Shown: in pieces, positions 16,444 to 62,826 of the stretch
Position numbering within the stretch: position 1 is the stretch's first letter
Layout: each line of letters opens with the position of its first letter
Source: Muscardinus avellanarius
Lineage: Eukaryota; Chordata; Mammalia; Rodentia; Gliridae
Assembly (NCBI GenBank): GCA_963383645.1
Contig: OY726571.1
Location: forward strand, 25,598,616 to 25,662,615
Reading direction: 5' to 3'
Length of the DNA stretch: 64,000 nucleotides
Made by a program: the position numbers and the translations under genes
The notes under the pieces: generated by a model
The model's database searches: none
What the model was told of the DNA's origin: nothing
Seen by the model: the letters and a program-made list of their open reading frames with translations, nothing else

Positions 16444-17115
16444 TGTAGTCATACATCTTAATGGAGTACAAGATGGTGGAGGCATACATGCACACATCAC
16501 CCAATTAGCCCTTCCCCAATTCCTGCCTGCCCCATTCCCTCCCCCTCCTTCCTTCTTATATTTGTCTTAGTGATTGGCTTTGATATGTTTCTTAATGTAC
16601 ATCATGAGGATTAGAGAATTTTCCTCTTTCCCCTTCTATCCTCTCAGGTCGCCTTATTTGCTCACCTATAGAATCTCCTTCTTCATCTAGAGTTCCTCCT
16701 ATGACCCATTTTCTCCCTAGCTTTCGCATATTAGGAAGAGCATTAAATTTCTTATTTTTTGTGACTGGCTAATCTCACTTAGCATAATGTTCTCCAGTTC
16801 CATTCTTTCCCTGTAAACAACGTAATTATGGTTTTTTTTAATGGCTGAGTAAAATTCCATTGTGTTCATATCCCATAGATTTGTAATCCATTCATCTGTT
16901 GGTGGACATCTTGGCTGATTCCATAGTTTGGCCATGATGAATTGTACAGCTATGAACATAGATGTGTATGCATTAGTTTGGTAGTTAGTTTTCATTCTTT
17001 TGGGTAGATACCCAGAAGTAGTACTGCTGGATCATATGGTAAGTTCATTCCCATTCTTCCTTTATACTGTTTTCCAAAATGGTTGTACTAATTTACAATC
17101 CTGGTCTCATTTCTT

Positions 17116-28801: not shown

Positions 28802-29579
28802 GAGACTTCCGGGAAGATGGCGACCGAGAAAAGCGGGGCTTAAGAGCCCCGCTAACAACCAATCTCCATTACCACAAAACCAGTGCCTTTCATAGCCAGA
28901 AAACACCATCACCAGAAAAACAAAAAAAAACCACCAGGCTCCAGAGAGAAAGCGGACTGAGAACAGAGCTCAGGGCCACAGAGGAGACACACGTGCCCGA
29001 GGACGCTGCCGCAGCGTGGCAAACTCAACGGACGGCTACAGCAAGCCGAGGTGAGCCACTGCGGAACAGCCAGGCGGGATTTCTCCACGCAGAGAGCGTC
29101 TAAAGCTCCCAGTGGCCGAGTTCAGCACACGCTGCAGGGATTCAGAGTGGAAATCAAAACCAGAGAAGAAAAAATACGCCAGCCTCACGGCCGAGGGTGT
29201 GGCAGAGGCGCCATATTGCCACCGGCGGCGGCAGCAGCAGTGAATTCACCGAGTCCAGTACAGCTACATCTGCGTACTCAAGAACAGTGAGTCAAATTGC
29301 GGGCCACAGAGGAGAAATCCCAGTACTGTACCTCCTGGGACTTGACCCAGTGAGGGAGTGGTGGTGGCAGAGATATCACACCATAGGAGAACGTGCAACC
29401 TGGCACCCCCCATAGTTTAAAGCAGCCTCTATCGACTCCCTGGGTCGGAGACTCTGTGATACAACCCAGTAAAGGAGTAGTGGGGTCTGAGATAATACAG
29501 ACTCGAGATCCAGAGCACATTAAGTGAAGCCATAGTGACCTAAGGGAAGAACCCAGAGAAGGCACAAACCTCCGAAATC
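28802..29579 (+). promoter_or_regulatory. L1-type 5'UTR / putative internal promoter
   Basis: A 778-bp leader in front of ORF1, CpG-rich relative to its surroundings. It opens with GACTTCCGGGAAGATGGCGA, which contains an ETS-like CCGGAA relative (TTCCGG) and a YY1-like AAGATGGCG close to the 5' end, where L1 promoters usually carry one. A second YY1-type core is in GCGCCATATTGCCACC. Promoter activity is inferred from position and family, not shown. Confidence 0.6.
28832..28853 (+). promoter_or_regulatory. Perfect 9-bp hairpin near the 5' end
   Basis: AGCGGGGCT, loop TAAG, AGCCCCGCT. The stem is 7/9 G+C. Copy 2 lacks everything up to and including this hairpin and begins at the base equivalent to 28855. 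Confidence 0.9.
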
Positions 29580-30497
29580 ATGGGAAAGAGGAATAACACT
29601 GGAGTAATGAATGCGCACAACCCCACAACATCAGAACCCGATAAAACAGAAAATCAGAGATTTCTAGAAGATCAAATCAGGAAAATAACTGTAGAAATAA
29701 TAGAGGTGCTTCGAAAAGAACTCAGAGAGAGCCAAAAAGAGATAAAGGATGCAATTAATGAAGTAAAGGCCTCAATTCAAAGCACAAACAACCGATTAGA
29801 ACACATGGAGAACAGAATCTCGCTCTTAGAAGATGAGCAATCCAAAAATGAACGCATAGTTTCTAATCTAGAAAAAAATATCCAACAGCAGGAATCTGAC
29901 ATGGAAGAAATATGGGCCCATCTTAAGAGAGCTAACCTAAGAATAATTGGAATAGAGGAGGGAAAAGAAAGTGAAACCAAAGGGATCAACAATCTCTTCA
30001 AGGAAGTAATAGCAGAAAATTTTCCAAATATAGAGCAAGAGGTTGATACACAGATCCAGGAAACTTATAGAACTTCCTTTAGACAGGATCGGAGAAGAGG
30101 ATCCCCACGCCACATAATTGTCAAAATGACCAATGTGGAAGCCAAGCAGAGAATCTTAAAGGCAACAAAAACAAAGGGCCAAGTGACATTCAGAGGCAAA
30201 CCAATTAGAATCACTCCCGACTTCCCAAACCAAGTCATGAGAGCCAGAAGGGCTTGGAGTAACATATTCCAAACTCTGAAAGAAAACAACTTCCAGCCAA
30301 AAATTTCCTATCCAGCAAAACTTTCTATCAAATTAGATGGAGAAATAAGAAGCTTCCATGACAAACAGAAACTGAAGGAATTTATGTCTTCAAAACCAGC
30401 ACTAGATAAAATACTCAAAGAGATTAACTACAAAGAAGAAATAGGTAACACTCATCAGAACCAGAGAAACAAGATTTTCCATCCAACAGACAACTAA
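29580..30497 (+). CDS. L1 ORF1 protein (RNA-binding chaperone), intact, 305 aa
   Basis: In the L1 family ORF1p is a trimeric RNA-binding protein that coats element RNA in cytoplasmic particles and is needed for retrotransposition. Seen here: a charged N-terminus (MGKRNNTG), a heptad-rich coiled coil at about residues 25-110 (KITVEIIEVLRKELRESQKE, ENRISLLEDE), an RRM-like domain starting around ANLRIIGIEEG, RRGSPRHIIVKM, then the C-terminal domain with KGQVTFRGKPIRIT, RARRAWSNIF and PKISYPAKLSIKLDGEI. It is shorter than human (338 aa) or mouse (about 360-370 aa) ORF1p, mostly in the coiled coil. An in-frame TAA lies just upstream, which favours this ATG. The stop falls where the sense L1 sequence ends and the chimeric region begins. 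No frameshift or premature stop was seen. A companion ORF2 is absent. Confidence 0.9.
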   Translation: MGKRNNTGVMNAHNPTTSEPDKTENQRFLEDQIRKITVEIIEVLRKELRESQKEIKDAINEVKASIQSTNNRLEHMENRISLLEDEQSKNERIVSNLEKNIQQQESDMEEIWAHLKRANLRIIGIEEGKESETKGINNLFKEVIAENFPNIEQEVDTQIQETYRTSFRQDRRRGSPRHIIVKMTNVEAKQRILKATKTKGQVTFRGKPIRITPDFPNQVMRARRAWSNIFQTLKENNFQPKISYPAKLSIKLDGEIRSFHDKQKLKEFMSSKPALDKILKEINYKEEIGNTHQNQRNKIFHPTDN

Positions 30498-30599
30498 GAT
30501 TGGTTATCTGTGGAGATTCATTATTTTTGTTAGTCTTTACCTATCTCTAAATTGTATTGTTTGCCTTTATTGTTGTTAATTTTTAGGATTTCTAGTTGG

Positions 30600-31215
30600 A
30601 ATATTAATATACCTTCAGATATAGCATTTGGAAATATTTTATCCCATTCTATTAGTAACTTTTAACTCTGTTTACATTGTCTTTGGATATACAATATTTT
30701 TATTTTTTAGGGAGTTTGTATATTCTTCTGTTGCCTGTGCCATTGAAATCATAACCAAGAAATCACTGCCAATTTCAATGTTGTGAGATTTTATGACCCA
30801 GATTTTCTTCTAAAAGTTTATAGTCTTAAGATTTATATTTAGGTCTTTTATCTATTTTGAGTTAATACTTGTATGTGGGATTAGGTAAGGGTCCAATTTT
30901 ATTCTTTTCCATGTAATTATTATTTTTCAACAATATTTAGTTAAAAGATTATTATTTCCACCACCAAATGTTCGTGGAAACCTTGTCAAAAATAACTTGA
31001 CAATATAGGGAAGAATTCAGCTCTAGGCTTGTATTTAACTCCAATGGTTTATATATCTGCCTTTAGAACAGTATTACACTGTTTCAATTATTGTAGCTTT
31101 ATATGGTTTGAAATCAGAAAATATATATCTGCTAGCTTTGTTCTTTTTCAAGATCGTTTTGGGTATCTAGAATTCATATTCCATATTAGGATAGATTTTT
31201 TTCTGAAAAATAAAT
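30600..31215 (-). pseudogene. Antisense relic of an old L1 ORF2, internal to the element
   Basis: Antisense landmarks: CTGTTGCCTGTGCCATTGAA, GAGTTAATACTTGTATGTGG + GATTAGGTAAGGGTCCAATT, TCCATGTAATTATT, TTGTAGCTTTATATGGTTTG and GCTAGCTTTGTTCTTTTTCA. These match the ORF2 reverse-transcriptase region in reverse. It is heavily decayed, much more than ORF1 beside it, so it was already a fossil when captured. Confidence 0.75.
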
Positions 31216-31394
31216 ATATGAATATATGATAGTTTCACCTAAAAAAACAGAAAAAATATTCTCTGGTAAGAAAGAAAGCAAAAAGAAATATTGAAATGTT
31301 ATCTTTAAGTTATCAAAAGCTTGGTATCAGACAAATGAAACTGTTATGTGAGATTAACATTTTTAATTTTGGATAAATTGCTATAATACTAGAT

Positions 31395-31543
31395 GTCAAC
31401 CACTAAGCCAAGCATGGGAAGGAGGGATGGGGAGGGAATGGGGTGGGGATTGGGTGGGGGCTGACTGGGCGATGTGTGCATGTATGTCTACAAAAGTTTG
31501 TATCCCACTATGATGTATGAATACAGTGCACCAATAAAATAAA
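31395..31543 (+). promoter_or_regulatory. G-rich L1-type 3' end of copy 1
   Basis: AAGCCAAGCATGGGAAGGAG, then several runs of three to five G (GGGGAGGG, GGGGTGGGG, GGGTGGGGG) and GTATGAATACAGTGCACCAA + TAAAATAAAA. A G-rich, quadruplex-capable 3'UTR is a conserved L1 trait. Here it is the likely recognition end for L1 machinery supplied in trans. Confidence 0.65.
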
Positions 31544-31561
31544 ATTAAAATACTTTTTAGC
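31544..31561 (+). repeat. Right target-site duplication of copy 1
   Basis: ATTAAAATACTTTTTAGC, an exact match to 28784-28801. Confidence 0.93.
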
Positions 31562-31599: not shown

Positions 31600-32672
31600 T
31601 TGCTTTTAAATTTTATTTTATTTTATTGGTACACTATAGTCTCACATCATAATGTGGATCCTGTTGACAATGGCATATATTCACACAGTACTTAGTGCCC
31701 CTCCCTCTGCTTCCCCTTTTCCCTCCCTCCCAATACTGAGTGTCCATGTTAACTATGTTATATTCACATATATACACATATTCGAATGTAGCTTTTCCAT
31801 TAATTAACCTCAGCCTTCTTCCTTACCTACACCTCCTTTCTGGCTTTGCTGAGGTTTCCCTCCCATTATCTGGAGTCCTTCTGGTATCCCTAATACTCCG
31901 TAGTTTGGGCATATTAGAGAAAACATATGTCCCTTCTCTTTCTGTGCTTGGCTGATCTCACTTAACATAATGTTCTCCAGGTCTTTCCATCTTCTTGCGA
32001 ATGCCATGATTTTATTCTTCTTTATAGCTGAGTAGAATTCCATTGTGTGTATTTCCCATAACTTTGCAATGCATTCATCTGTTGATGGAGACCTAGATTG
32101 GTTACATATTTTGGTTATTACGAATTGTGCTGCTATGAACATATGTATGCATATGTTACTGTAGTTCTCTGGTTTCAACCCCTTTTGACAAATACCCAGA
32201 AGTGGTAGAGCTGGATCATATGGTGGATCTATTCCCAGTTTTCTAAGGAATCTCCACACTGATCTCTATAGTGGCTGAACTAGTTTGCACTCCCACCAAC
32301 AGTGTAAAAGAGTTTCTATTTCCCCACATCCTCGCCAGCATTTGTTGTTATTTGATTTCTTTATGCTTGCCACTCTGACTGGGGTTAGATGGAATCTCAA
32401 AAAAGTGTAGTTTTGATTTGTATCTCCCTGATGGCCAGTGATGTAAAACATCTTTTCATGTATCTATTGGCCCTTTGTATCTCTTCTTTTGTGAAGTATC
32501 TATTCAGTTCAGTTGCCCATTTCTTAATTGGATTGTTTGTTCTGCTAGTGTAGAGTCTTTTGAGCTCTTTGTATATTTTGGATATTAGCCCTCTATCAGA
32601 GTGATAGCTGGTAAAGATCTCCCATTCTGTAGGCTTCCTCTTTAGATTCTTGATGGCTTCCTTTGATGATCA
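31600..32672 (-). mobile_element. 5'-truncated L1: ORF2 C-terminus and 3'UTR (antisense)
   Basis: The minus-strand translation shows the ORF2 C-terminal signature [20 protein letters not shown] (32451 to about 32270) and then, in the frame of 31810-32259, MWRFLRKLGIDPPYDPALPL and TMEFYSAIKKNK. One frame break separates the two segments. The copy is truncated at about 32672, within the ORF2 domain following the RT. It is non-functional. Confidence 0.88.
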
Positions 32673-42775: not shown

Positions 42776-42968
42776 ACAGCATCTTTTTCTTCTTTTCAAA
42801 CTACTACAGCTATCTTATGTCTTGTTCTTGCCTCATCAAACTCATGTGAAATCTGAAGTCATCACCTCAACTTCAAACTCAGTGCTCTGAGGAGTCCTAT
42901 AGGACATGGAGGACAGGCATTTGAAGAATAATTCTCCATATTCTCATGGTCATTTAATATTTATCTTT

Positions 42969-43154
42969 CATGTGTATATATGTAGTACTGGAGATTGACC
43001 CACAGGCATACTACTTCTGAGCTATACTCCCAGCCCTATTTTATTTTTTATATGGAAACAGGGTCTCATTAAGTTGCTGAGGCTGGCCTCAAATCTATGA
43101 CCCTCCTATCTCAGCCTCCCAAGTACTGAGATTACAGGTGTGCACCCGGCTTTA
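42969..43154 (-). mobile_element. B1-dID SINE, later split at its head by the VNTR element
   Basis: AGTACTGGAGATTGACCCAC through GTGTGCACCCGGC. Its own duplication TTTAATATTTATCTTT is at 42953-42968 and 45425-45440, so its right-hand copy is now 2.3 kb away beyond the composite insertion. Confidence 0.92.
43141..43154 (+). repeat. Left target duplication of the VNTR composite
   Basis: TGCACCCGGCTTTA, identical to 45415-45428. On the minus strand the cut site reads TATT/AAAG, close to the L1 endonuclease consensus. Confidence 0.92.
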
Positions 43155-43440
43155 TTTTATTTTTTTATTATTATTTTTGTAATCATCCATCCCTTTGGAA
43201 TACAAGACTTGAGAGGATATACAAGCACATATCATCCAATAAGCCCTCCTCCCATTCCCTCCCCCACAATCCCATGCTTAATTGGTGATTATCTTTGATA
43301 TAACTGTTTACGCACCTCATGAGTTTTAAAGAAATTCCATACTTCCCCATCCCCTCCCCTCTGATTGGTCACCTTAATTGCTTTTCAATAGTACCCTTTC
43401 TACTACTCGACCTCCTCCTATTACCCCTTTCCTCCTAGTT
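43155..43440 (-). mobile_element. L1-type 3'UTR module and A-tail of the composite
   Basis: Antisense C-rich tract (CCCATTCCCTCCCCCACAAT, CCCCATCCCCTCCCCTC) plus the mixed T/A tail TTTTATTTTTTTATTATTAT. In sense this gives repeated G-runs followed by A-rich sequence, like the 3' ends of other L1 copies in this window. Confidence 0.75.
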
Positions 43441-43509
43441 CTTGCTAATTAGGGGCAGCATCTGGATTTTATTTTCTGTGTTATCTCTCTGTGCATGCCG
43501 CATTGCAAG

Positions 43510-44610
43510 TTCTGATCCTACTCTTGACAGCCCCAGCAGTGGCCTGGCCACCCGGAGAACTCTTATCCCAACCTCGCTGGCTCCAGCACTGGCTTTGCCA
43601 CATGGGAGGCCCCAATCCTGGCCTCGCTGGCCCCCGCACCGAACTAACCCCTTGGCTGGCTCATCTCCCGGCCTCAGAGGCCCCAGCACCGGCCTAGCCT
43701 CACAACAGGCTCCGATCCCGGCCTCACTGACCCTGGCACTGGCCTAATCGCTCGGCAGTCTCCTATCCTTGTCTCATAAGTCCCGGCTCCATCCTTGCCT
43801 CACAGCAGTTTCCAATCCTGGCCTCGCTGGCCCTGTCACTGGCCTTACCCCTCGGCAGAGTCCAATCCCAGCCTCGGAGGTCCCAGCACCGGTCTTGCCT
43901 CACAGCAGGCTCGTGTCCCGACCTTGCTGGCCCCGGCACCAGCCTAACCCCTCGGCTGGTGCCAATCCCGGCCTCGGAGGCCCCAGCACCGGCCGTGCCT
44001 CATGGCAGGCTCCGATCCTGGCCTCACTGGCCCCGGCACTGACCTCACCCCTCGGCAGGCTCTTATCCTGGTTTTAGAGGCCCCAGCACCGGCCATACCT
44101 CAAGGCAGGCTCCGATCCTGGCCTCGCTGGCCCCGGCACCAGTCTAATCCCTCGGCAGGCTCCTATCCAGGCCTTGGAGGCCCCGGCACCGGCCTTGCCT
44201 CACAGCAGGCTCTGATCCCGGCCTCAATGGCCCCGGCACTGGCCTAACCCCTCGGCAGGCTCTGATCCCGGCCTCTGGGGCCTCAGCACTGGCCTTGCCT
44301 CATGGCAGGCTTCTTTCCCAGCCTCGCTGGCTCTGGTACTGGCCTAACACATCAGCTGGCTCTGATCCTGACTTCGGAGGCCCAAGCACCAGCCTCGTCT
44401 CATAGCAGGCTCTGATCCCGGCCTTGCTGGCCCCGGCACTGGCCTAAACCCTTGGCAGGCTCCAAACCTGGCCTCAGAGGCCCCAGCACTGGCCCTTGCC
44501 TCATGGCATGCTCCAATCCCGGCCTCTCTGGCCCCAACACCCGCCTAACCCCACGGCAGGCTCAGATACCGGCCTCGGAGGCCCCATCACCTGCCTTGCC
44601 TCACGGCAGG
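43510..44610 (-). repeat. VNTR: 22 monomers of 50 bp in A/B alternation
   Basis: Aligned by eye, every monomer begins near CTCCGATCCCGGCCTC. Type A continues GCTGGCCCCGGCAC..., CCTAACCCCTCGGCAGG. Type B continues GGAGGCCCCAGCACC..., CTTGCCTCACAGCAGG. The last 20 monomers alternate strictly A, B (ten 100-bp dimers). The first two are diverged or hybrid. Total 1,101 bp. The overlapping open frames here are artefacts of GC-richness and the 50-bp period. Confidence 0.93.
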
Positions 44611-44639
44611 CTCTGCTCTGAGCCCCCTCTTCACCCAGC

Positions 44640-45125
44640 AGGTTGTCCCACATTCCTGAGGTGCGTGGTGGTAGTATTCTACCTCTGAGGTAATTTCTTC
44701 AAAAGTTCCAGGTATATTACATCAGATCTCTGCCTCCCCTGAGTACTTGCTGCTGCCAATGCGACTGCCTCCACCATTTCAAATCATTCCCAAGCTCTTT
44801 TCCCATACCACAAAATGTCCAGTGTTCCAAAGCATGCACAACGGTAGCATTCGACCTTTGGGGTAATTTCTTCAGAGGATGAGGGTGGGTTGGATCAGAT
44901 GTCTGCCTCTCCCAAAGACAATTCTCCACTGCCATCTCGGCCGCTGCTGCTGCAACCACCTTCCTCTTAGGTCTCCACTAGACTTACAGGTGATGTCCAG
45001 GATTAAAGATGTAGAGAAGCCTTAGTCCTCCTTCACGGGGAATTTTTCCAAAAGTTCCAGTTCAGATGTATATGTTTTGTCTGCATCTTCAATATTCTAG
45101 CTTCCGCCTCGGCCATCTTAACCCC
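44640..45125 (-). promoter_or_regulatory. Three degenerate tandem monomers (promoter-like 5' module)
   Basis: Each copy in plus orientation has a block like TAGCATTCGACCTTTGGGG or TAGTATTCTACCTCTGAGG, then GTAATTTCTTCA, an ATCAGAT(C)TCTGCCTC block, and a GCTGCTGC/GCCATCT block. Copies are near 44650-44785, 44835-44965 and 45010-45122. In sense the first begins TTAAGATGGCCGAGGCGG, which is L1-5'UTR-like with a YY1-type core. Function is inferred only. Confidence 0.55.
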
Positions 45126-45244
45126 TCTCGAGTATTTTTCTTCCCCCCCCCTTTTTTTTTAAATAAGAGAAGAGAGTATGTGTGGATTGGGGAGGATGTG
45201 GGATCAGGCACTTGGTAACAATGAAAAATTTTTTTCATTCTGGG

Positions 45245-45414
45245 TGTGTGGGGTGGGGGTCACTTAAGGGTGTCCCAACCAGGCCCTCCAACATGCCCAG
45301 GGTCGGGGCCTGGCGGCCCGGACCTCAGGGTCCTTCCAGGTGAGGAGGGGGTCGCCTAAGGGTGCCCCGCCAGCACCCATCCATCCACCCAGGGTCCTCG
45401 GGTCCCTTCCGGGT
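45245..45414 (-). repeat. GC-rich leader, two diverged repeats
   Basis: GGGGGTCACTTAAGGGTGTC and GGGGGTCGCCTAAGGGTGCC start two units, each later carrying a CCCAGGGTC block and CCTTCC near the end. It forms the 5' end of the composite in sense. Confidence 0.65.
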
Positions 45415-45428
45415 TGCACCCGGCTTTA
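45415..45428 (+). repeat. Right target duplication of the VNTR composite
   Basis: TGCACCCGGCTTTA. It overlaps the right-hand target duplication of the older SINE, which starts at 45425. Confidence 0.92.
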
Positions 45429-45440
45429 ATATTTATCTTT

Positions 45441-55849: not shown

Positions 55850-55902
55850 AGGGTCAGGGGATGGAACCCAGGGCACTCGACCTCCCAGCTACATCCCCTG
55901 CA
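55850..55902 (-). mobile_element. ID half of a SINE, left part
   Basis: GTCAGGGGATGGAACCCAGG + GCACTCGACCTCCCAGCTAC. Its probable other half is at 57766-57907. Confidence 0.7.
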
Positions 55903-55904
55903 TT

Positions 55905-57765
55905 TGTGCATTGTATTTATACATCATAATGGGGTAAAAAACTTGTGTAGACATAAATGCACACATCACCCAGCCAGCCCCCACCCAGTCCCCACCTCAC
56001 TCCCTCCCCTCCCCACCCCTCTATCCCATGCTTGGTTTGGTGGTTGACTTCGATATGAATAAGTACATCATGCTCCTTACACCATTTCCCTCTCCCACCT
56101 CCCATCCCCACAGTTAGGTTGCCTTATTTGCTCCTCTATAGGATCTCTTTTTTCACCTGGAGTTCCTCCTATGATCCCATTCACCCTAGCTTTCACATAT
56201 TAGGGAAAGCATCCGATTCCTTACTTTTTGTGACTGACTAATCTCACTTAGTATAATGTCCTCAAGATCCATCCATTTTCCTGAAAATACCGCAATTGTA
56301 TTTTTTTTATAGCTGAGTAAAATTCCATTGTGTACATATCCCACAGTTTTGTAATCCCTTCATCGGTTGATGGACATCTTGGCTGGTTCCATAGTTTGGC
56401 TATGGTGAATTGTGCAGCTATGAACATAGATACACATGCATTAGTTTGTTAGTTTGGTTTCCTTTTTTGGGGGGGTAGATACTCAGAAGTGGTATTGCTA
56501 GATTGAATGGTAGATTTGTTTCCATTCTTCTGAGGATTCTCCATACTGTTTTCCAAAGTGGTTGCACTAATTTACAATCCCACCAACAATGTTTTAGAGT
56601 TCCCTCTTCTCCACATCCTTGCCAGAATTTGTTATTGTTCATATTTTTGAATGATTGCCATTATAATTGGAGTTAGGTGAAATCTCAGGGTAGTTTTGAT
56701 TTGCATTTCTAATTGCCAATGATGTTGAGCATTTTTTCATGCATTTATTGGCCATTTGAATTTCTTCTTTCGTGAAGTGTCTGTTTAGTTCACTTGCCCA
56801 TTTTTTGATTGGATGATTAGTTTTTTTAGTGTTGAGTTTCTTGAGTTCTCTCTATATTCTAGATATTAGTCTTCTATTTGAGGGGTAGGTGGCAAAAATC
56901 TTCTCTCATTCTGTTGGCTTTTAAAGTTCTTGACAGTTTCCTTTGCTGAACAGAAGCTCTTCAATTTCATGCGATCCCACATATTGATTTGCCTTTTGGT
57001 TTGTTGTGCCTTTGGGGTCTTGTTGAGAAAGTTTTTACCTGTGCCTATGTATTGCAGTGTTGGACCTATGCCCTCTTCGAGGAGCCTTAAGCTCTCTGGT
57101 CTAATTTCCAAGTCTTTGATCCATGTTGAATTGACTCATGTGCAGGGTGAGAAAGTAGGATTAATTTCCAGTTTTCTGCATATGGTTAACCAGTTTTGTC
57201 AACACCATTTGTTGAAAAGGCTATCTTTTTTCTAGTGTATGTTTTTGGCCCCTTTGTCAAAACTCAATTGACTGAAAGTGTGTGGACCTGTTTCTGGGTC
57301 TTCTATTTTGCTCCATTGGTCTATGTATCTTTTTTTGTGCCAGTACCATGATGTTTTTATTACAATGGATTTGTAGTATAGTTTAAAGTCCAGTATTGTG
57401 ATTCCTCCTGCATAGCTTTTGTTGCTGAGAATTACTTTGGCTATTCTGGGCCTTTTGTTATTACAACTAAATTTAAGGACTGATTTTTCTATGTCTGTGA
57501 GGAATGATCTTGGTAGTTTAGTGGGCATTGCATTGAATCTGTAGATCACTTTTGGAAGTATGGCCATTTGTATAATATTTATTCTGCCTATCCATGAACA
57601 TGGAAGATCTTTCCATCTTCTAAGATCTTTGATTTCTTTTTTCAATGTTTTATAATTTTCTTTGTAGAGATCTTCTACCTCCTTGGTTAAGTTTATTCCT
57701 AAATATTTTATTTTTTTGTGGGTGATCTTGAGTGGAAGTGTTTTCTGAATTTCTTTTTCAGTGGG
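55905..57765 (-). mobile_element. 5'-truncated L1 with long ORF2 relic (antisense)
   Basis: 3'UTR, ORF2 C-terminus (56418-56642: QGCGEEGTLKHCWWDCKLVQ) and the upstream domain (57232-57798: [75 protein letters not shown]). Open for about 190 codons in one piece but broken elsewhere. The 5' end falls inside ORF2 downstream of the RT catalytic core. It is a dead copy. Confidence 0.9.
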
Positions 57766-60082: not shown

Positions 60083-60098
60083 AAAATAAAATGTTGGA
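60083..60098 (+). repeat. Left target duplication of ORF1-only element copy 2
   Basis: AAAATAAAATGTTGGA, identical to 62827-62842. Preceded by TTA, so the cut fits TT/AAAA. Confidence 0.92.
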
Positions 60099-60823
60099 AC
60101 AACAAATATCCATTACCACAAAATCAGCGCCTTTCAAAGCCAGAAAACAACATCACCAGAGAAACAAAAAAAAATCACCAGGCTCCAGAGAGAAAGCGGA
60201 CTGAGAACAGAGCCACAGAGGATATCCTCACGCCCGAGGACGCGGCAGATGCGGCAGCAGCGCCATACTGCCGGCGAATTCACGGGACGGCCACAGCAAG
60301 CCGAGGGGAGCCGCTGCGGAACAGCCAGGCGGGATTTCTCGGCGCAGAGGACATCTAAAGCTCCCAGTGTCTGAGCTCAGCACACGCTGCAGGGATTCAG
60401 AGCGGAAATCAAAACCAAGAAAAAAAAAAAAACGCCAGCCCAACAGCCGATGGCGTAGCAGCGGCGCCATATTGCCACCGGCGGCAGCAGCACGGAACTC
60501 ACTACAGCTACATCTGCGTACTCAAGAACAGTGAGTCAAATTGCGGGCCACAGAGGAGAAATCCCAGTACTGTACTCACTGGGACTTGACCCAGTGGGAG
60601 AGGGGCGGTGGCAGTGATATCACACCATAGGAGAACGTGCAACCTGGCACCCTCCATGGTCTAAAGCAGCCTCTATCGACTCTCTGGGTCGGAGACTCTG
60701 TGATAAAACCCAGTAACGGAGTAGTGGGGTCTGAGATACTACTGACTCGAGATCCAGAGCACCTTAAGTGAAGTCATAGTGACCCAAGGGAAGAACCCAG
60801 AGAAGGCACAAACTTCCGAAATC

Positions 60824-61795
60824 ATGGGAAAGAGGAATAATACTGGAGCAATTAATGCTCACAACCCCACAACATCAGAACCCGATAAAACAGAAAATCA
60901 GAGATTTCTAGAAGATCAAATCAGGAAAATAACTGTAGAAATAATAGAGGTGCTTCGAAAAGAACTCAGAGAGAGCCAAAAAGAGATAAAAGATGCAATT
61001 AATGAAGTAAAGGCCTCAATTCAAAGCACAAACAACCGATTAGAACACATGGAGAACAGAATCTTGCTCTTAGAAGATGATCATTCCAAAAATGAACGCA
61101 TAGTTTCTAATCTAGGAAAAAATATCCAACAGCAGGAATCTGATATTGAAGAAATATGGGCCCATTTTAAGAGAGCTAACCTAAGAATAATTGGAATAGA
61201 GGAGGGAAAAGAAAGTGAAACTAAAGGGATCAACAATCTCTTCAAGGAAGTAATAGCAGAAAATTTTCCAGACATAGAGCAAGAGGTCGATACGCAGGTC
61301 CAGGAAACGTATAGAACTCCCTTTAGACAGGATCGGAGAAGAGGATCCCCACGCCACATAATTGTCAAAATGACCAATGTGGAAGCCAAGCAGAGAATCT
61401 TAAAGGCAACAAAAACAAAGGGCCAAGTGACATTCAGAGGCAAACCAATTAGAATCACTCCAGACTTCCCAAACCAAGTTATGAGAGCCAGAAGGGCTTG
61501 GAGTAACATATTCCCAAAAATTTCCTACCCAGCAAAACTTTCTATCAAATTAGATGGAGAAATAAGAAGCTTCCATGACAAACAGAAACTGAAGGAATTT
61601 ATGTCTTCAAAACCAGCACTAGAGAAAATACTCAAAGAGATTAACTACAAAGAAGAAATAGGTAACACATCAGAACTAGAGAAACAAGATTTTCCATCCA
61701 ACAGACAACTAAGATTGGTTATCTGTGGAGATTCATTATTTATGTTAGTCTGTTACCTATCTCTAAAGGGTATTGTTTGCCTTTATTGTTGTTAA
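60824..61795 (+). CDS. L1 ORF1 protein, copy 2, altered C-terminus
   Basis: Start chosen to match copy 1 (MGKRNNTG); an upstream in-frame ATG at 60779 would add 15 residues. Coiled coil, RRM-like and C-terminal domains are all present. Two lesions: a 27-bp in-frame deletion removing nine residues (QTLKENNFQ) between WSNIF and PKISYP, a segment strongly conserved in L1 ORF1p, and a 2-bp shortening near the end that shifts the frame so that the protein reads past the copy-1 stop into the chimeric region (ending LKGIVCLYCC). RNA-chaperone function is doubtful. Confidence 0.85.
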   Translation: MGKRNNTGAINAHNPTTSEPDKTENQRFLEDQIRKITVEIIEVLRKELRESQKEIKDAINEVKASIQSTNNRLEHMENRILLLEDDHSKNERIVSNLGKNIQQQESDIEEIWAHFKRANLRIIGIEEGKESETKGINNLFKEVIAENFPDIEQEVDTQVQETYRTPFRQDRRRGSPRHIIVKMTNVEAKQRILKATKTKGQVTFRGKPIRITPDFPNQVMRARRAWSNIFPKISYPAKLSIKLDGEIRSFHDKQKLKEFMSSKPALEKILKEINYKEEIGNTSELEKQDFPSNRQLRLVICGDSLFMLVCYLSLKGIVCLYCC

Positions 61796-61899
61796 TTTTT
61801 AGGATTTCTAGTTGGAATATTAATATACCTTCAGATATAGCATTTGGAAATATTTTATCCCATTCTATTAGTAACTCTTAACTCTGTTTACATTGTCTT

Positions 61900-62440
61900 T
61901 GGATATACAATATGTTTTTTATTTTTTAGGGAGTTTGTATACTCTTCTGTTGCCTGTGCCATTGAAATCATAACCAAGAAATCACTGCCAATTTCAATGT
62001 TGTGAGGTTTTATGACCCAGATTTTCTCCTAAAAGTTTATAGTCTTAAGATTTATATTTAGGTCTTTTATCTATTTTGAGTTAATACTTGTATATGGGAT
62101 TAGGTAAGGGTCCAATTTTATTCTTTTCCATGTAATTATTATGTTTCAACAATATTTAGTTAAAAGATTATTATTTCCACCACCAAATGTTCGTGGAAAC
62201 CTTGTCAAAAATAGCTTGACAATATAGGGAAGAATTTAGCTCTAGGCTTTTATTTAACTCCAATGGTTTATATATCTGCCTTTAGAATAGTACTACACTG
62301 TTTCAATTATTGTAGCTTAATATGGTTTGAAATCAGAAAATATATATCTTCTAGCTTTGTTCTTTTTCAAGATCGATGTGGGTACCTAGAATCCGTATTC
62401 CATATTAGGATAGATTTTTTTTTCTGAAAAATAAATATAT
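61900..62440 (-). pseudogene. Antisense L1 ORF2 relic of copy 2
   Basis: The same relic as at about 30600-31215 with scattered substitutions (for example TGTATATGGG for TGTATGTGGG). It starts and ends at the same places relative to ORF1 and the 3'UTR. Confidence 0.75.
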
Positions 62441-62826
62441 AAATATATGATAGTTTCACCTAAAAAATAGAAAAAAATAGATTCTCTGGTAAGAAAGAAA
62501 GCAAAAAGAAATATTGAAATGTTATCTTTGTCATCAAAAGCTTGGTATCAGACAAATGAAACTGTTATGAGAGATTATCATTTTTAATTTTGGATAAATT
62601 GCTATAATACTAGATGTCAACTACTAAGCCAAGCATAGGAGGGGGGGATAGGGAGAGAACGGGGTGGGGATCGGGTGGGGGCTGACTGGGCAATGTGTGC
62701 ATGTATGTCTACAAAAGTATGTATCCCACTATGATGTATGAATACAGTGCACCAATTAAAAATAAATATGAAAAAAAATAAATAAATACAATAAAAAAAG
62801 ATGAGGATACAAAAAAATAAATAAAT

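Follow-up and report, generated by a model that had tools for sequence, protein, structure and literature searches.

The closest described systems to the element presented here are the composite retrotransposons SVA, LAVA, PVA and FVA. A passage of PMC4432496 terms such VNTR composites specific to hominoid primates, and in the domain swaps described there it is the VNTR that sets how efficiently LAVA is mobilised. In a cell assay described in part of PMC7353768, SVA and LAVA are mobilised by L1 in trans. Human SVA has about 6,000 copies according to a section of PMC13174262 in which a VNTR is mentioned for SVA only. HAL1 (half-L1) elements are non-autonomous, have ORF1 and lack ORF2, and the SpIREs derive from splicing of human L1 mRNA, as a passage of PMC5860796 states. 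HAL1 names exist for guinea pig and marmoset in the part of PMC3183009 that bears on this work, where the squirrel row holds four LTR families and STRID3. We recognised no rodent element of the composite kind in our searches of the open-licence literature.

Our window, the whole stretch of 64,000 nucleotides of Muscardinus avellanarius DNA that was analysed, contains an element with the structural features of a VNTR composite retrotransposon. We believe it is very probably a member of an old, large, non-autonomous family that is mobilised by L1 and convergent with SVA and LAVA. Like the four hominoid families it is non-coding and consists of a 5' domain, a GC-rich VNTR with units in the 30-50-bp range, a foreign 3' domain and an A-tail. 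Unlike them it has a 5' end made of 89-94-bp and ~170-bp monomers, and it lives in a different host order. It is important to realize that the likeness is one of architecture, and that the 5' Alu-like region shared by those four families was not found in the composite. The best match of the composite to the flanking SINE has E=0.17 (11 bases) and a window-wide comparison gave no SINE matches to it, so there is no sign of an Alu-like region, the SINEs compared being those of the rodent only.

The window copy and its parts

The original prediction described a 2,260-bp minus-strand insertion with a 14-bp duplication, an A-rich tail, a G-rich L1-type 3' end, a VNTR of 22 x 50 bp, a multi-part GC-rich 5' module and no coding region, and all of these parts were found (Table 1). 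The 14-bp repeat is exact and directly bounds the element on both sides. Across the family the architecture reads 5'-[89-94-bp monomers]-[A/G-rich bridge]-[three degenerate ~170-bp monomers]-[50/100-bp GC-rich VNTR]-[last ~22 codons of L1 ORF2 + 3'UTR]-A-rich tail. The composite sits at the 5' end of an older SINE, which we take to be Alu/B1-like. This SINE has a 16-bp duplication of its own that lies outside the composite; therefore the SINE was already in place when the composite inserted, and the two insertions are nested. An Rfam scan gave one tRNA-like match, outside the element, but it also missed the flanking SINE, so we give it no weight.

Table 1. Features of the composite, its setting and the HAL1-like copies in the window
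Feature	Position	Strand	Basis
Whole composite retrotransposon, window copy (L001)	43155..45414	-	Boundaries and matches in own genome
TSD copy, element's 5' side (TGCACCCGGCTTTA on +)	45415..45428	.	Exact direct repeat
TSD copy, element's 3' side (TGCACCCGGCTTTA)	43141..43154	.	Exact direct repeat
Leader, short tandem stretch of 89-94-bp GC-rich monomer	45245..45414	-	TRF in other loci, 5'-end placement
Bridge, A/G-rich, with TTATTTAAAAAAAAAGGGGGGGGG run	45120..45244	-	Approximate boundaries
Three degenerate ~170-bp monomers, first starts TTAAGATGGCCGAGG	44619..45121	-	Monomers aligned in copy L002
VNTR, about 22 units of 50 bp as ~100-bp dimers	43496..44618	-	TRF and alignment with other copies and L1
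3' module start, remnant of L1 ORF2 (last ~22 codons), frame disrupted by indels	43437..43496	-	Alignment with window L1s
L1-type 3'UTR with G-rich stretch	43177..43436	-	Alignment with window L1s
A-rich 3' tail	43155..43176	-	Low-coordinate end is the minus-strand 3' end
Older SINE (presumed Alu/B1-like), received the composite at its 5' end	42969..43154	-	Many related copies in window
SINE's own TSD, low copy (TTTAATATTTATCTTT)	42953..42968	.	16-bp duplication
SINE's own TSD, high copy, overlaps composite's TSD	45425..45440	.	16-bp duplication
HAL1-like ORF1-only copy: 5'UTR, ORF1 ~337 aa, A+T-rich 3' part, L1-type 3' end	28806-31550	+	
HAL1-like ORF1-only copy: 5'UTR, ORF1 ~337 aa, A+T-rich 3' part, L1-type 3' end	60098-62778	+	

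The predicted VNTR stands, with about 22 units confirmed by alignment, but its description can be improved. TRF finds 21 copies of a 50-bp period at 43565-44613 with 67% match, and 10.5 copies of a 100-bp period at 43560-44613 with 75% match and a score of 1056. The better unit is therefore a diverged 50+50 dimer. The 5' module divides into the 89-94-bp monomer leader, the bridge and the ~170-bp monomers. Of 14 copies scanned by TRF, 9 have a leader composed of tandem 89-94-bp units, with up to 4.8 repeats in other loci. A 70-bp repeat inside the 5' module (44670-44739 and 44843-44912, 173 bp apart, 75.7%) is a trace of the ~170-bp monomers. As a separate observation made by eye, one copy (L065) has its leader joined straight to the last VNTR unit, the remaining 5' module and the VNTR being absent.

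The composite has no coding region beyond chance. The longest ATG-initiated frame of the window copy is 72 aa sense and 81 aa antisense, while 50 shuffles of the element gave a mean longest ORF of 77 and a maximum of 126; ten other copies have longest frames of 37-111 aa. Both ORF1 and ORF2 are absent by this ORF scan against shuffles. This separates the composite from LINE-1, and since it has no ORF1 it is not a HAL1 either.

A dispersed family with clustered 5' starts

The original prediction pointed to a shared junction, L1-type duplications and a shared 5' start as the things to look for at other loci, and they are there. Allowing up to 3 mismatches, the junction between VNTR and L1 sequence has 4,996 matches in the same genome (2.497 Gb, 104 contigs), the 3' module has 4,492 and the 5' module 870; reversed-pattern controls gave 0 for each. 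Searching with the whole element, we scored the best 40 of 15,307 candidates, every one of which matches. Leaving the window copy aside, 21 of these loci match at least 2,070 of the 2,260 bases at 83-89%. The best 40 of 4,446 candidates from a search with the 5' module all match at 90% or more. The best 40 loci, which were read with their flanks, are biased toward similar and complete copies, a bias from which the pattern counts are free. Copies are spread over many contigs. The VNTR pattern had 0 matches in each of the non-mammalian viral and genome contig collections, a result with no bearing on other sciurids.

Junctions outnumber 5'-module matches 5.7 to 1, so many copies are probably truncated at the 5' end, although mutation could also have removed the 5' pattern. 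A pattern for the edge between 5' module and VNTR matched 442 times, fewer than the 870 of the 5' module, and this may be put down to a variable edge. Some copies match no further than query position 1470, and we rejected the idea that these have a different 5' module, as the same 5' module is present wherever it aligned, with a longer VNTR in most.

Individual sites were sampled from both ends of the element. Twelve 5'-module sites drawn from the 100 listed perfect matches to a 44-mer are all composites. A 251-bp downstream piece was read at each, and a nearer 301-bp piece at the 5 with no match in the first. Ten show the composite 3' module directly, one (L054) reaches the conserved block that terminates the VNTR, and one (L055) is still in VNTR, with the junction matched on the same strand 2,936 bp downstream of its 5' module. 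We considered whether the sites without composite sequence at +1500 were L1 and rejected this, all 5 being composites with shorter VNTRs when re-read. We also sampled 20 3'-module sites on one contig (C1) that have no listed perfect 5' match nearby. The junction is present at eighteen, of which 17 were recognised by a pattern allowing up to 6 substitutions and 1 by alignment; at the other two the 3' module itself is cut short and different sequence precedes it. None of the 20 has ORF2 upstream of the 3' module.

The insertions have L1-type target site duplications at many loci. With windows set by BLAST tiling alone, without reference to TSDs, a duplication of at least 10 bp was found at 24 of 39 loci and in 22 of 1,482 mismatched flank pairs. 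At a threshold of at least 13 bp the figures are 15 of 39 and 2 of 1,482. The other 15 of the 39 loci have no TSD of at least 10 bp in these windows, and one locus (L035) was excluded because two copies lie there. An earlier test with hand-set 5' windows gave 23 of 39 and 18 of 1,482 and is superseded by this one. The duplicated sequences and the flanks differ between loci, and A-rich tails are present. An initial A on the sense strand is expected at an L1 endonuclease site, and 19 of the 23 TSDs from the hand-set windows start with A on the element's sense strand. The duplications and tails are consistent with mobilisation by L1.

The 5' ends that can be placed by a duplication, 23 in all, are clustered. 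Twenty-two of them fall within a single stretch of 45 bp in the 94-bp monomer of the leader; of 20,000 random draws, 1 was clustered as tightly. Inside this stretch is CCGGAAG, which seems to us to resemble an ETS-factor site. We read the 45-bp stretch as a likely transcription start zone carried by each monomer. The 5'UTR of mouse-type L1 has tandem promoter monomers and starts inside a monomer; the composite likewise has tandem monomers with starts inside a monomer, a likeness drawn from description rather than from sequence.

The number of VNTR units varies between copies. The span from 5' to 3' module runs from 727 to 3,490 bp, or roughly 7-62 units, at the 40 of 70 sites where it was measurable, those with both ends among the perfect matches listed (4 of the 70 were added for a listed junction partner); the longest spans may contain other insertions. 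Among the best 40 loci, 37 fall into distance classes near 896, 946, 995, 1047, 1140 and 1245 bp. The loci outside these classes have a partial 5' module (L027), a distance of 1,696 (L030), or a distance of 2,106 with a broken-up 5' module (L032). Within the array of one copy (L002) the 50-bp units are 71% alike on average, but their best matches in ten other copies average 87-90%, in the same order mainly in the 3' half. The array was therefore already diverged when it was amplified.

Copies differ from the column majority by a mean of 5.0% in the 3' module (n=40) and 6.3% in the 5' module (n=39), or 3.9% and 4.4% respectively when CpG-like columns are left out, the latter figures being a point of difference from SVA, LAVA, PVA and FVA. 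The closest pair differs by 6.2%. At a substitution rate of 2-3e-9 per year the family would be roughly 13-22 million years old. At several 5'-module positions the nine loci with long VNTRs (1,137-1,250 bp) share one base and most of the 995-bp loci another. This tracking of VNTR length by 5'-module bases suggests at least two subfamilies.

The L1 source of the 3' module

From sense position 1919 the element aligns with the end of ORF2 and the 3'UTR of two minus-strand L1 copies of the window, one within 16444-17060 (66.4%) and one within 55901-57000 (64.0%), as the predicted L1-type 3' end would have it. In the first of these the aligned part starts 22 codons before the ORF2 stop. The ORF2 assignment comes from the peptide of that copy, which matches LINE-1 ORF2p in the PDB (E=3.5e-18) to near the C-terminus. 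On these alignments the 3' module is derived from L1. The self-similarity of the VNTR stops a few bases from the start of the L1 similarity, so the fusion is clean, and the junction is aligned in 40 of 40 loci. The composite thus has a 3' domain from another retroelement, followed by an A-tail, with the same junction across copies.

Where the other parts came from is less easily argued. It is possible, though we doubt it, that the composite is an ORF-less deletion derivative of one L1 lineage, with the leader, the ~170-bp monomers and the VNTR being that L1's own 5'UTR. A single deletion or splicing event would have brought the VNTR up against the end of ORF2, and amplification of the short form would have followed. 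The 3' module does start inside ORF2 near the stop codon, as a deletion or splice would leave it, and the ~170-bp monomers, which look L1-5'UTR-like to us, begin with AAGATGGCCGAGG, presumably a start of the kind seen at L1 5' ends. However, the 5'UTRs of a young L1 (L041, L042) and of an older ORF1-only family (L043, L086) gave only short A/T-run matches to the 5' module. These cover two lineages, and the donor L1 may be extinct. The sampled sites also argue against this derivation, the 5'-module sites being composites in 12 of 12 cases and the 3'-module sites having ORF2 upstream in 0 of 20. Such an origin would be compatible with the family we propose; it differs on the origin of the parts only, which would not be foreign. 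The original prediction left room for both a convergent SVA-type element and an ORF-less L1 derivative, and it is supported by the thousands of junction loci, the locus-specific TSDs and the variable VNTR.

Two further explanations can be dismissed. A single-locus internal L1 deletion or local rearrangement without family behaviour, which the original prediction named as its possible undoing, is refuted because there are thousands of junction loci with differing TSDs and varying VNTR length and all 12 sampled 5'-module sites are composite. A GC-rich minisatellite locus spread by segmental duplication would explain why about half of the element's length is tandem repeat, but with copies on many contigs, A-rich tails, different flanks and TSDs and clustered 5' starts it is scarcely credible.

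The L1s of the same genome were searched for a partner. An ORF1 search (PF02994) scored the best 150 of 38,950 candidates, and more than 100 of these 150 loci have an identical score, most with a 329-aa open frame. So many equal scores point to a young L1 family, perhaps recently active. In the one young L1 whose 3' end was read (L044), similarity to the 3' module is limited to the final bases of ORF2 and the A-rich tail; its 3'UTR is unrelated, and is unlike that of the older L1s of the window. Among the L1s examined in this genome we found none with a composite-type 3'UTR. As a side observation, a young-type L1 3' end (31669-32383, minus, 82.5% to L044) lies directly beside the tail of one HAL1-like copy.

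Composite and HAL1-like elements as probable users of L1

We believe the composite family would work as follows. An RNA polymerase II transcript would start within one of the 5' 89-94-bp monomers, as the 5' ends of the copies indicate, and continue across the bridge, the ~170-bp monomers and the VNTR until it reaches the A-rich terminus of the borrowed L1 3' end. L1 proteins, ORF2p included, would then be supplied in trans and copy the transcript into new sites by target-primed reverse transcription. In this scheme the leader would be the promoter. The family would have evolved as a lineage of its own rather than by repeated re-creation from L1, and the VNTR presumably gives it an advantage. 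To our knowledge it is unsettled why a VNTR helps a non-coding RNA to win L1 proteins.

Several likenesses to the hominoid composites go beyond the order of the parts. Like SVA, with the number cited above for the human genome (PMC13174262, in part), the family has thousands of copies, as its 4,996 junctions attest. LAVA's name includes a LINE-1 part, as a passage of PMC4432496 has it, and the 3' module here is from L1. The same source, in part, is the hominoid side of another likeness, the conserved order of units at the 3' end of the VNTR and a change of length by whole units. We think it likely that VNTR composites arose at least twice in mammals, and that a rodent lineage independently built such an element, with about 5,000 junction-bearing copies, from a promoter of tandem monomers, a GC-rich VNTR and the 3' end of an L1. 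If this is true, exploiting L1 by way of a VNTR composite is something that evolution can repeat, and no accident confined to apes. An independently evolved family that has this layout and different 5' parts permits a comparative test of L1 recognition. What L1 recognises may lie among the features in common (a GC-rich VNTR, length change by units, a borrowed 3' end); those not common to both, such as the Alu-like region, are not generally required.

The likeness to LINE-1 itself lies in the 3' module, homologous to the ORF2 end and 3'UTR, and in the L1-type TSDs; the difference is the lack of ORF1 and ORF2. The composite resembles the SpIREs in being an internally shortened L1-related insertion (PMC5860796, in part), but its short form is present at thousands of loci and no parent L1 with its 5' module was found in the L1s examined.

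The older ORF1-only elements (L043 type) look to us like HAL1. Their ORF1 is mostly 337-338 aa and is 90-96% identical to that of L043 in 118 other scored copies; many of the 119 copies scored in the genome carry a stop. In two of them (L087, L088) an A+T-rich stretch and then an L1-type 3' end come after ORF1, all inside about 1.3 kb, which leaves no room for ORF2. We considered these elements as the autonomous partner of the composite and rejected them, as the regions read 3.5-5 kb behind ORF1 have no L1 3' end and the tail of L087 and L088 comes within ~1.3 kb. A fragment of an antisense composite at the start of one locus (L043:1-381), about 2.4 kb before its 5'UTR, is a separate neighbouring copy. 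HAL1 and the composite are alike in being L1-derived and non-autonomous, and the final ~120 bp of the HAL1-like family are of L1 type and resemble the composite, the match being 76-78% over 119 bp with copy L028 and 73-76% with copy L002. They differ in that the composite has a VNTR and no ORF1, and its 5' module is absent from the HAL1-like 5'UTRs examined. Two kinds of L1-derived parasite with related 3' ends can thus be compared in one host. At four loci (L046, L053, L057, L088) Alu/B1-like SINEs were seen by eye to adjoin or interrupt composite and HAL1-like copies, and such nested insertions could give a relative chronology.
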